From a virus, in IMG/VR virus record IMGVR_UViG_3300035703_000110, positions 1 to 57,536 of that record: DNA of 57,536 bases; one strand, 5' to 3'. This document shows, in pieces, positions 11,187 through 54,095 of the stretch (its first letter is position 1; every line of letters begins with the position of its first letter). A model generated the notes under the pieces. The model was not told where the DNA came from and ran no database searches. It saw only the letters and a program-made list of their open reading frames with translations. A program made the translations under genes and the position numbers.

Positions 11187-11445
11187 AACCGTCACCAGCA
11201 TTGAGAAACTCATTCACTATGAGGTACACCGGCAAACGGTTTTGATGGCTCGGCGGTTGTCGAAAATGAAGGCCCAACGCGATAACTGGAAAGCCCGTGC
11301 GATTGACTACCGCGAGAAACTGCAGAACCTCAAAAAGTCAACGGCGCTCACCAAAGACACAGAGACTGTGCAGCCCCGTAACCCGGTTGCAGCGGGCGCA
11401 CCTCGCACGACATGGGCGGGGGTTAAAATCAAACAAAACTCCTAA
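11167..11445 (+). CDS. Hypothetical coiled-coil protein, 92 aa
   Basis: Last gene of the plus-strand early block. An amphipathic basic helix (VLMARRLSKMKAQRDNWKARA) is followed by a low-complexity tail. Its stop codon lies inside the first hairpin (CCTAA-GCAA-TTAGG) of the structured RNA element downstream. Function unknown. Confidence 0.62.
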   Translation: MTDIKSKTVTSIEKLIHYEVHRQTVLMARRLSKMKAQRDNWKARAIDYREKLQNLKKSTALTKDTETVQPRNPVAAGAPRTTWAGVKIKQNS

Positions 11446-11623
11446 GCAATTAGGCGCGTGGTCCCTGCGTATGGGACGCCATCATTAAAGCGGCGGCGTG
11501 GTGAGACACGCGTTTGCTGAGAGTCACCCCTATGAGGCAACAGCACGCGGTTGGGGTAAGCCGGTATCGAGCCCGGCCCGCTTTAATGATGGTGATTGTG
11601 TAAAACTGTGGCAAGAAATTGCC
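11441..11623 (+). ncRNA. Candidate structured noncoding RNA of unknown class
   Basis: The convergent gap between early and late genes folds into many helices on the plus strand. They are: CCTAA/TTAGG with a GCAA loop (11441-11454); GTCCC/GGGAC (11461-11477); a perfect 15-bp stem CCATCATTAAAGCGG (11479-11493) with 11578-11592; a GCCGG/CCGGC hairpin (11560-11577) abutting that stem; TGCTG/CAGCA (11515-11519/11541-11545); ACCCC/GGGGT (11526-11530/11553-11557), which would make a pseudoknot; and GGCAA-GAAA-TTGCC (11610-11623). GNRA loops appear only on this strand. It is not a canonical tRNA or a simple terminator. Confidence 0.6.
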
Positions 11624-50878: not shown

Positions 50879-53431
50879 ATGAGCGGTCCATTTCAAACAA
50901 AAGGTCTTGCCTATATTGAGCAAGGCTATGCAATTGTGCCCATCCCACGCGGTAGCAAGGGTCCAACGCTGGATGACTGGCAAAGCGAGTACGCAAGCAC
51001 AGCCGAACGCCACGCAGAGTTAGTCGAAGACTACGGTAATTGCGGTATCGGCATCATTGCGAAGTTCAACCCGGCAATCGACATCGACACGCTTGATGAA
51101 GCGATGTCAGAGCACATGATTGAGTGGGTGCGTGACAACATCGCGGATGCACCGCTACGCTACGGCCAAGCACCCAAGGCTTTGATGCTGTTTACCTGCG
51201 CAACACCGTTTCGCAAAATCACGTCAGCCAAGTACATCCGTCCAGGTGGGTCGAAGAAAGGTGAGCGCGTTGAAATCTTGGGTAATGGTCAACAGTTTGT
51301 GGCTGACCACATCCACCCGGATACCAACAAGCCGTACTTCTGGCAGGATGATGAGGCAAGCCCGCTGACTGTCAACGCTATCGACCTGCACATGCTCACG
51401 CTGGATGAAGCGTTGGCCGTTTGCCGTGAGTTTGAACGTGTGGCCGAGCTGCGCGGGTGGGAGAAGGTAGCTAACGCCACAAATGCTCAGGGTGATGATG
51501 AAGACACACCCACGGCTGAAGACGCTTTGGGGCAGCTCGACCTACCCGAAGAAACCGAGGAAGAAATTGCACGCGTCAAATCCGCTCTTGAGGCCATGGA
51601 CCCCGAGGTGGAAGACTACTCGTATGAAGAATGGCGCAATGTCCTCTTTGCTCTCAAGTGGACCCAATGGTCATGTGCCGAGGAACTTGCACGCGAGTGG
51701 TCCGAGCGATCCGACAAATACGATGCAAAGAATTTCCGCACCGTTTGGAAAGGCGCACAGAAACGGCAACGTGGTCGTGAGCACACTCTTGCTACCGTCT
51801 TCCACATGGCAAAGTCTCGTGGTTGGGATGCCTCGCGCAAGCCTACCGAGGAAGACAAAACCGAGCTGCTTTACACCCTGTTGTCCGAAGCGGATGCGCT
51901 GTCCCAAATCGTGCGCCCTGGTCGTGCCCTGAAAGAGCTGTTGAAAAAGCTTGCCACGGCTGACCTTGACAACTTGGATGAGGCCGAGGTGCTGAAGGCC
52001 ATCAAGGCGTCTACCAAAGACTCCATTGCCGACCTGAAAAAAGCAGTCGGTCAGTTCAAAAAAGGTGGTGACGCGATCAGCCCGACACACGCCGGGTACG
52101 CCAAATCATTTTTAGCCAAGCTCGAAGAACGCAGCGATGTGGACCCGGTAGGCGTAGAGGGCATGATTTTTCACTACGTCAAGCGCAAAGGGGTGTGGGA
52201 CGGCCTGCAAGCCCCGGACGCGGCAAGTGTGAAGGTAGCCGATGAATTCGACGGTATGGAGCACTGTGAGCGCCGTAGTGACTACACGGCCATTGCAAAC
52301 CACGCCTACTCGATAGCTGCACAAGAGAATGAAGACTTTTTCAATGACGCACCCGTGGGCTTGGCTTGCCAAGGTCGCTTCTACTCGGTCAACGCCGAGG
52401 GTGAAATTGAACGTGAGCCCATTGGACCGCAGCACCGGCAACGCGTCTTGTCGCCAGTTCGTCCCATTGCTGGTGATAAGCCTCTTTTTGAGAAATTCTT
52501 GCACTCCACATTTGAGGGTGAAGGCGAACAAGACCAAATTGACTTGCTGCAAGAGGTCATTGGGGCCACGCTGGTAGGCACGATGGCCAAATATGAAAAG
52601 GTGGTGCTGTTTAAGGGTCCAGGCCGTGCAGGTAAGGGCACGCTCATGAAAATCATCGAAGCCATGATGCCCCCTGAATGGCGTAGCGCGATCAGCCCCT
52701 TCAAATGGGATAACGAATACTACTTGGCGAGTCTTGCCGGTAAGCGCTTGAACTTGGTGGGTGAGTTGACCGATGAGATTCCAATTCCTGCAGCCAACTT
52801 CAAGACCGTCACGGGCCGGGACATTCTGCAAGGTCGTCACCCTGCGGGCCGGCCGTTCAACTTCCGCAATCAAGCTGCGCACATTTTTAACTCAAACTAC
52901 TTTGTGCATACCAAGGATCACAGTGACGCGTTTTTCAGTCGCTGGATTCTCATGGAGTTCCGCAACAGCCGGATCGGATCAAATGAAATTGAAACCGACT
53001 TGGCAAAAAGGATCATCGACGGCGAGTTGTCGCAAATTATGGCGTGGGCGCTTCAAGGGGCCAAACGGCTGCAGGCCCGTGACCGCTTCCTAGATAACAG
53101 CGTGCAGGCCCGCATGTTGGCTCAGTGGTCACGTCGCACAAGCTCACTGACAGAATTTGTGTTGGACCCTGATTTCTGCATTTTGACCCGCGATAAAAAC
53201 GATCACGTCTTGCGTTCGGATTTTTACAAGAGCTACGCGCAGTGGTGCAAAGAGTCCAATCGTCACCCCATGGGCAAAATCAAGGCGTTCGATGAGCTGG
53301 AAAGTTCGACGTTCCGCCGCCTGGATATAACCGTTGGGACGGTAATTGGTAAAAACTTTGTTGTGCGTGGGATGCGTTTGAAGACAAGCGAATGGGACCA
53401 TTTAAGCCGAGAAGACGACCAAGAATTATGA
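50879..53431 (+). CDS. Bifunctional Prim-Pol / SF3 helicase (D5/P4-like)
   Basis: 850 residues. N-terminal Prim-Pol domain (1-~180): PRGSKGPTLDDWQ, AIDIDT with the acidic DxD pair, and VADHIHPDT. Middle part: primase C-terminal/D5-type helical regions. C-terminal SF3 helicase: Walker A FKGPGRAGKGTLMKI (~585), RLNLVGELTDEIPIP as Walker B-like, and AAHIFNSNYFVHTKDHSDAFFSRW (motif C/Arg finger). It should synthesise primers and unwind DNA at the origin. Ends EDDQEL. Iterons lie just downstream. Confidence 0.92.
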   Translation: MSGPFQTKGLAYIEQGYAIVPIPRGSKGPTLDDWQSEYASTAERHAELVEDYGNCGIGIIAKFNPAIDIDTLDEAMSEHMIEWVRDNIADAPLRYGQAPKALMLFTCATPFRKITSAKYIRPGGSKKGERVEILGNGQQFVADHIHPDTNKPYFWQDDEASPLTVNAIDLHMLTLDEALAVCREFERVAELRGWEKVANATNAQGDDEDTPTAEDALGQLDLPEETEEEIARVKSALEAMDPEVEDYSYEEWRNVLFALKWTQWSCAEELAREWSERSDKYDAKNFRTVWKGAQKRQRGREHTLATVFHMAKSRGWDASRKPTEEDKTELLYTLLSEADALSQIVRPGRALKELLKKLATADLDNLDEAEVLKAIKASTKDSIADLKKAVGQFKKGGDAISPTHAGYAKSFLAKLEERSDVDPVGVEGMIFHYVKRKGVWDGLQAPDAASVKVADEFDGMEHCERRSDYTAIANHAYSIAAQENEDFFNDAPVGLACQGRFYSVNAEGEIEREPIGPQHRQRVLSPVRPIAGDKPLFEKFLHSTFEGEGEQDQIDLLQEVIGATLVGTMAKYEKVVLFKGPGRAGKGTLMKIIEAMMPPEWRSAISPFKWDNEYYLASLAGKRLNLVGELTDEIPIPAANFKTVTGRDILQGRHPAGRPFNFRNQAAHIFNSNYFVHTKDHSDAFFSRWILMEFRNSRIGSNEIETDLAKRIIDGELSQIMAWALQGAKRLQARDRFLDNSVQARMLAQWSRRTSSLTEFVLDPDFCILTRDKNDHVLRSDFYKSYAQWCKESNRHPMGKIKAFDELESSTFRRLDITVGTVIGKNFVVRGMRLKTSEWDHLSREDDQEL

Positions 53432-53500: not shown

Positions 53501-53890
53501 AGAGGTAAAGTTGGGGTCTGAGAGGTAAAGTTGCGCGGGGGGTGGGTCTATGGAAAATTTCAAGTTTCACAATTTCCATTTTGCATTTTTTCCCATAAGG
53601 GTATGCCCAGACAAGATTACCTCTCAGACCCCAACTTTACCTCTCAAGAGCCAAAATCGATCAAAAAAATTCATTTTTGGACACTTTTTGCCTGTTTTTG
53701 CCCATTTCTAGAGGTATTCCTAGAGGTAAAGTTGAAAAAAAATATACCCAACTCTGCCCTACATCGAGCACTTCTGGTGTCCATGGGTCCAAAACCAGAA
53801 AAATTTGCACACATAGAGGCATAGTTTGCCCGCGATGGTCGGTTTTCCCTGTTTTTCCGTCGCAACTTTACCTCTAAGAATACCTCTAGA
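53501..53890. repeat. Inverted iteron array, candidate replication origin
   Basis: AGAGGTAAAGTTG occurs at 53501, 53521 and 53722 on plus, and at 53632-53644 and 53863-53875 on minus. Variants are at 53612-53624 and 53879-53887 (minus) and 53710 (plus). They form two large inverted repeats: 53501-53528 with 53617-53644 (28/28) and 53707-53734 with 53863-53890 (27/28). Loops are A/T-rich. Iterons next to an SF3 Prim-Pol/helicase gene suggest an origin, as for P4. No convincing gene is seen in this stretch. Confidence 0.7.
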
Positions 53891-54095
53891 AACAGCCTTG
53901 GTGCCCTAAGTGGTTTGGAAAACTCGTTTTCGCCGGGGCTCTGCGCCCCCGCACACGTAAAAAGAGCCACAGAGGGACCCGACCACACTAGGCCCACCAT
54001 TAAAAAGTATCCTGAGCCCCCGCCACACCCCCGCCCATGGATCAAACAAAGCAAGGGTTACACATAAAACAATGTGCGCTTAGTCTATTAGATAG

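Follow-up and report, generated by a model that had tools for sequence, protein, structure and literature searches.

The stretch of viral DNA analysed here, hereafter the window, is 57,536 nucleotides long (positions 1 to 57,536 of IMG/VR record IMGVR_UViG_3300035703_000110), and its DNA polymerase is 47% identical to that of phage AH2. Early-type plus-strand genes converge on lysis genes, and the gap between them contains a structured RNA at 11479-11592 on the plus strand (Table 1). The first-pass annotation had placed this structure at an early/late convergence, a description that fits the lysis genes and is otherwise loose, with the DNA polymerase and helicase also encoded on the minus strand. 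All of the internal elements it had reported were found, namely the perfect 15-bp closing stem (P1), the GCCGG/CCGGC hairpin directly abutting that stem, and the two crossing helices TGCTG/CAGCA and ACCCC/GGGGT. The GCAA and GAAA hairpins that it had described as flanking the structure on the plus strand are also present, but they lie outside the core conserved in the family described below; the GCAA hairpin overlaps the stop codon of a coding sequence that ends at 11445. A 92-aa protein adjoins the RNA, and our search for relatives of this protein found none.

Table 1. Elements of the structured RNA and its flanks in the window.
Element	Position	Strand	Basis or comment
Upstream hairpin CCTAA-GCAA-TTAGG	11441-11454	+	Outside the conserved core; not conserved in relatives
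Hairpin GTCCC-TGCGTAT-GGGAC	11461-11477	+	Abuts the 5' side of P1; recurs there in long-P1 members
P1 5' strand, CCATCATTAAAGCGG	11479-11493	+	Half of a perfect 15-bp inverted repeat
Two-nucleotide linker CG	11494-11495	+	At the place of tRNA positions 8-9; C then G/A in the family
P2 hairpin GCGTG [GTGAGA] CACGC, D-arm-like	11496-11511	+	Family loop GANGGA; stem covaries
Pseudoknot helix S1, 5' strand TGCTG	11515-11519	+	Partner 11541-11545; two compensatory changes
Pseudoknot helix S2, 5' strand ACCCC	11526-11530	+	Partner 11553-11557; invariant in close relatives
S1 3' strand CAGCA	11541-11545	+	Same alignment as S1 5' strand
S2 3' strand GGGGT	11553-11557	+	Same alignment as S2 5' strand
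Near-invariant A before the T-arm-like hairpin	11559	+	A in 152 of 163 members
T-arm-like hairpin GCCGG [TATCGAGC] CCGGC	11560-11577	+	Family loop U-N(1-2)-UCRANY
P1 3' strand, CCGCTTTAATGATGG	11578-11592	+	Inverted repeat, as for the 5' strand, and covariance-model match
Downstream hairpin GGCAA-GAAA-TTGCC	11610-11623	+	Outside the conserved core

A search of the whole window for perfect inverted repeats of at least 14 nt within 300 nt gave only the arms of P1 and an iteron-like cluster at 53.5-53.9 kb. Situated beside the primase gene (50879-53431), this cluster (53501-53892) is built of repeats of the AGAGGTAAAGTTG type and includes two long inverted repeats, one of 33 nt (94%) and one of 30 nt (97%); it resembles an origin or operator array of the iteron type. 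We found no U-run downstream of the RNA in the window when testing for an intrinsic terminator, in agreement with the annotation, though the copy in Pseudomonas phage Persinger does have an intrinsic terminator after it. Compared with shuffled sequence, folding energy gave z = -2.5 for the plus strand and z = -4.2 for the minus strand; because the minus strand folds well too, folding energy cannot decide the strand, and both strand and reality of the fold were taken from relatives.

We identified these relatives by a blastn search of GenBank phages, which returned two unannotated places, one in Persinger and one in Alcaligenes phage vB_Af_QDWS595. In Persinger the core is kept (direct match to the window core, E 1e-10) and the closing stem is different in sequence yet still paired, while in vB_Af_QDWS595 the closing stem and T-arm-like hairpin are kept and the middle is different. 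A short search pattern for the T-arm-like hairpin, defined from these two phages together, produced at least 120 matches in IMG/VR where a handful is expected by chance, and nearly all of the matches listed share one architecture. A second IMG/VR scan was anchored on P2 instead, and a third, gapped scan yielded 49 contigs, 13 of which were already among the first-scan matches listed. This overlap implies that the first scan covered about 27% of the collection, and the scan overlaps suggest a family of the order of a thousand members in IMG/VR, a figure that is an estimate rather than a count. Exact patterns of the window's own core were less productive, with Persinger the only genuine match in IMG/VR and all others coding or chance.

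A pattern scan of bacterial contigs produced a Ralstonia site that proved to be a chance match and that served as an anchor for genome searches. Of 299 Burkholderiaceae genomes, 2 carried the family RNA, as did 2 of 398 Pseudomonadota genomes. For at least one bacterial copy the setting is a prophage, some 3 kb upstream of the terminase genes, and a terminase gene also follows another copy; both positions fit a phage-borne element.

We then built a covariance model (R2) from 24 members, leaving the window, Persinger, the Alcaligenes phage and a further member, L240, out of training. The model gave one strong match in the window, at 11486-11585 on the plus strand (64.1 bits, E about 1e-10 to 2e-10), and it also matched Komagataeibacter phages phiKX1 and phiKX2, Caulobacter phage DMCA, Pseudanabaena phage Pan3 and four places in bacterial genomes, additional members that were not used in finding the family. 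Persinger scored 16.9 bits and is too diverged for the model. The RNA is absent from the Casjensviridae relatives AH2 and ACF1, indicating that it is not a lineage-wide trait and that it passes between unrelated phages as a cassette. A search of the whole window against Rfam 15 returned no match at gathering thresholds, the best sub-threshold score being for the c-di-GMP-II-GCG riboswitch RF03170 (20.5 bits against a cut-off of 47.9). We found neither a description of the family nor its consensus letters in the open-access journals and the few preprints covered. From sequence comparison, the membership of 11479-11592 (+) in a large family of phage RNAs is close to certain; this family is apparently undescribed, missing from Rfam 15 and unannotated in GenBank phage records. 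The earlier proposal of a compact pseudoknotted RNA, exceeding what a terminator needs and belonging to no known class, is supported by these results.

Family members share a fixed order of parts: P1, whose sequence is free, a linker of C then G or A, P2, a variable domain, a single A, the T-arm-like hairpin and the 3' strand of P1. P1 ends in GG/CC and ranges from 7 to over 20 bp, and the linker reads CG in 140 and CA in 17 of 163 members. P2 is a 5-bp hairpin with a GANGGA loop (GAAGGA, GATGGA or similar) whose stem covaries at all five pairs, and the middle domain measures about 40-176 nt and is highly variable between phages. The T-arm-like hairpin has 5 bp and abuts the 3' strand of P1 without a gap. 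Its loop has 8 nt in the first-scan matches listed, and variants from the P2-anchored scan include TATCAAGC, AATCAAGC, TGTCGAGT, TATCAATC, TATTAAGC and TACTCAAGC among others, giving a consensus of U, one or two free nucleotides, and then U-C-R-A-N-Y. Given this family-wide loop, the first pass was apt in likening the GCCGG hairpin to a T-arm.

Covariation among homologues was strong. In an alignment of 27 members, 98.1% of cells were paired compared to 78.7% after shuffling (0 of 500 shuffles reaching the observed value), controls with slid partners paired at 25-42%, and 12 of 18 pairs, P1 included, showed changes on both sides. This covariation is decisive sequence-level evidence that the predicted family fold is real. 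The window carries the covarying P1, P2 and T-arm-like hairpin, the C-G/A linker and the A in the fixed order. The GG of the P2 loop is lacking in the window, which has AG where the family usually has GG, and likewise in L070 and Persinger; because GG is common but not universal, it was not used as a defining feature. Persinger departs from the family consensus in both the P2 and the T-like loop. GNRA loops occur inside the variable domain, with CGAAAG enriched, G-U pairs occur in the T-stem of variants, and some family copies lie head to tail, 1-28 nt apart.

Hairpins abutting P1, varied in sequence, are found in the long-P1 subgroup alone. This subgroup includes, for example, L055, L043, L096, L175, L194 and the window; its members with a P1 of 16-18 bp often have the P1 sequence CACCATCATYGAAGCGG in common along with an additional hairpin against the 5' side of P1, and several carry GCGC-type hairpins just after P1; it is possible that a longer RNA is recognised in this subgroup. 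Bordetella phage PHB04 holds an element (L141:3979-4036) with closing stem ACCATCATCGAAGCGG and hairpin GCCGG-GGATAAGC-CCGGC, separated by only CATTCGA and without P2 or a middle domain, which is possibly a miniature of the family.

To examine the crossing helices we aligned the window with Persinger and L240, a third-scan member that combines the window's core with the usual P2 and T-like loops (P2 loop GATGGA). Helix S1 was paired at 100% in all three, with compensatory changes in two of its five pairs, while 6 of 14 P1 pairs and one T-stem pair were changed on both sides. In this alignment, the predicted S1 helix is supported by covariation, whereas S2 is invariant and is supported by its presence in all three sequences, not by covariation. 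The middle domain of the window's subgroup is an H-type pseudoknot, as the crossing of the two helices had been read in the first pass. Crossing helices are enriched but not universal across the family, reaching p<=0.05 in 15% of middle domains compared to the 5% expected. Other members differ in this region: L087, L176 and L217 show compensatory changes in a long-range middle-domain helix, in place of which L112 and L244 have a plain hairpin.

We then investigated the genomic context of 203 RNAs in 200 contigs, a few of which are near-duplicates. Within 500 nt of the RNAs we counted 26 tRNA genes on the same strand, a number that includes a few near-duplicate contigs, and 3 on the opposite strand, all 3 of them in one contig. 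Such a neighbour accompanied 10.3% of RNAs compared to 2.6% of positions drawn at random from those contigs, making it four times commoner. L148 and L168 each lie between two tRNA genes, L209 carries an intact tRNA-Gly(gcc) in the middle domain, immediately ahead of its T-like hairpin, and the variable domain of L074 encloses a tRNA-like sequence whose anticodon loop is unusual. No tRNA lies near most members, among them the window, and part of the proximity may be explained by a preference of both tRNAs and the family RNA for non-coding gaps. Two further RNAs were observed in the contigs of family members: an ARAGORN permuted-type tmRNA candidate with the tag ANDNVYAAAA in Alcaligenes phage QDWS595 (L006:571-947), in a region rich in tRNA-like genes, and a Burkholderiales-2 RNA (RF02917, 93.5 bits) at L037:1542-1615.

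By crude ORF calls, the RNA has no constant neighbouring gene and the nearest protein genes share no family, and among the 92 loci where a gene could be called to either side all four gene orientations were common (31, 24, 19 and 18). The lack of a constant neighbour suggests that the RNA probably acts in trans, and together with the mixture of orientations it argues against a cis-regulatory role. Upstream promoter scores were barely above those of shuffled sequence.

The reading we favour, at a probability of roughly 45%, is that the RNA may be a tRNA-mimic scaffold, bound or handled by a tRNA-directed host factor, in which the variable domain would be phage-specific. It would be a free-standing non-coding RNA transcribed from the plus strand, alone or together with phage tRNAs, in which P2 and the T-arm-like hairpin would dock as the D- and T-arms of tRNA do, forming a tRNA-like elbow on the P1/T-arm stack. 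Such an elbow could present the RNA as a tRNA to RNase P, a tRNA-modifying enzyme, EF-Tu or the ribosome. The activity particular to each phage would come from the variable domain, its likeliest role being that of a decoy or a regulator acting on the tRNA or translation machinery in the course of infection. The D-loop and T-loop letters (GG and UC) fit docking in most members, in sets each selected on one of the two loops. Since the P2 loop of the window lacks GG and Persinger is off consensus in both loops, docking is either not universal or takes another form, and the combination of no CCA with a P1 of such varied length makes aminoacylation or a strict RNase P ruler unlikely for many members. 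With the mechanism offered as a hypothesis, we hold slightly more tentatively that the family may be a new, widespread class of phage non-coding RNA, joining an elbow mimic to a fast-evolving pseudoknotted domain, at times an entire tRNA, that replaces the anticodon arm, and subverting host tRNA handling or translation or evading a tRNA-directed defence.

Alternatively, the outer scaffold could give stability only, as a closed, exonuclease-resistant frame, around a variable domain that pairs with targets or binds a protein such as CsrA via a GGA loop, making the RNA a trans-acting regulator or sponge. We regard this as unlikely but worth weighing: the variability of the middle domain and the lack of a constant neighbour agree with it, and ANGGA in a hairpin loop resembles the CsrA/RsmA binding motif, whereas the P2 loops of the window and Persinger lack GGA, and the conserved T-loop letters and same-strand tRNA proximity would be left unexplained. 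Some members also come from phages that infect a cyanobacterium, Caulobacter or Komagataeibacter, and in these groups CsrA is for the most part not known to occur. For the window itself a CsrA sponge was set aside for want of a GGA, as were a retron, there being no reverse-transcriptase neighbours, and a CRISPR-repeat mimic (anti-CRISPR RNA), for which we saw no resemblance.

Less probable still is a role in processing, in which the fold would protect the 3' end of the early operon in the window, or of the integrase mRNA in Persinger, as a retroregulator- or terminator-like stabiliser. In both phages the RNA directly follows a plus-strand gene at a convergent gap, with the intrinsic terminator coming after it in Persinger, and an upstream gene on the same strand with a downstream gene on the opposite strand is the commonest arrangement (31/92). 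However, the other three orientations are common as well, upstream genes have no function in common, and a simple test found a terminator-like site after only 4 of 104 members.

It is highly improbable that the RNA is riboswitch-like or otherwise regulates the next gene in cis: compact, pseudoknotted structures whose loops are conserved do typify aptamers and the weak c-di-GMP-II-GCG score is in keeping with one, but the gene that follows lies on the opposite strand in the window, as it does in 49 of the 92 loci, neighbours have no common function, and that score comes from outer stems only. We consider it equally improbable that a DNA-level element (a packaging, origin or attachment site) merely resembles an RNA, for while inverted repeats form in DNA too and the element adjoins an integrase in some of its named carriers, integrases are not constant neighbours, and the T-loop consensus, the GNRA loops, the T-stem G-U pairs and the same-strand tRNA linkage point to RNA.

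If the family holds, it represents one structured RNA class distributed across unrelated phages (Casjensviridae-like, Schitoviridae, Harrisonburgvirus, prophages and a cyanophage), and among phage RNAs linked to tRNA genes it would be the third, following GOLLD and ROOL, yet small enough for routine biochemistry. The fold is precise and can be tested, and cultured phages carry members, which makes the role of the RNA during infection directly testable.

Among known RNAs, the c-di-GMP-II-GCG riboswitch shares a closing stem and a CGAGCCCG-like stretch on the 3' side, but its interior is unmatched in the window, and 14 short member-carrying contigs gave no c-di-GMP-II match at E<=1. The tmRNA, like the family, has tRNA-like ends that close a pseudoknotted interior; in contrast to it, family members have a true D-stem-like hairpin, lack a tag reading frame and CCA, and measure 100-200 nt rather than 350, and neither ARAGORN in the window nor Rfam or ARAGORN on family members called a tmRNA. 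GOLLD and ROOL are structured phage and prophage RNAs often found near tRNA islands, the linker region of GOLLD sometimes carries tRNAs, and GOLLD is reported to bind ribosomes in pull-downs (PMC12286853). These two are the nearest known parallels in context, as phage RNAs near tRNA islands, but they are several times larger with other sequences and folds, and neither has an Rfam match in the window or in 14 member loci at gathering thresholds. The family differs from tRNA (RF00005) in having the variable domain in place of an anticodon arm, one or two extra nucleotides in the T-like loop, a P1 of variable length and, in the members looked at, no encoded CCA after P1. ARAGORN called no tRNA in the window and did not take family members for tRNAs, nor did Rfam match a tRNA on the window RNA (E<=10) or on member contigs (E<=1), so that a trivial known element such as a degraded tRNA does not account for the structure. 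The likeness to tRNA lies instead in the order and size of the outer parts (closing stem, two-nucleotide linker, D-like hairpin and T-like hairpin), in the GG of the family D-like loop, in a 5-bp T-like hairpin that abuts the closing stem and carries a U-N-UCRANY loop, and in the occurrence of family members in and beside phage tRNA clusters.
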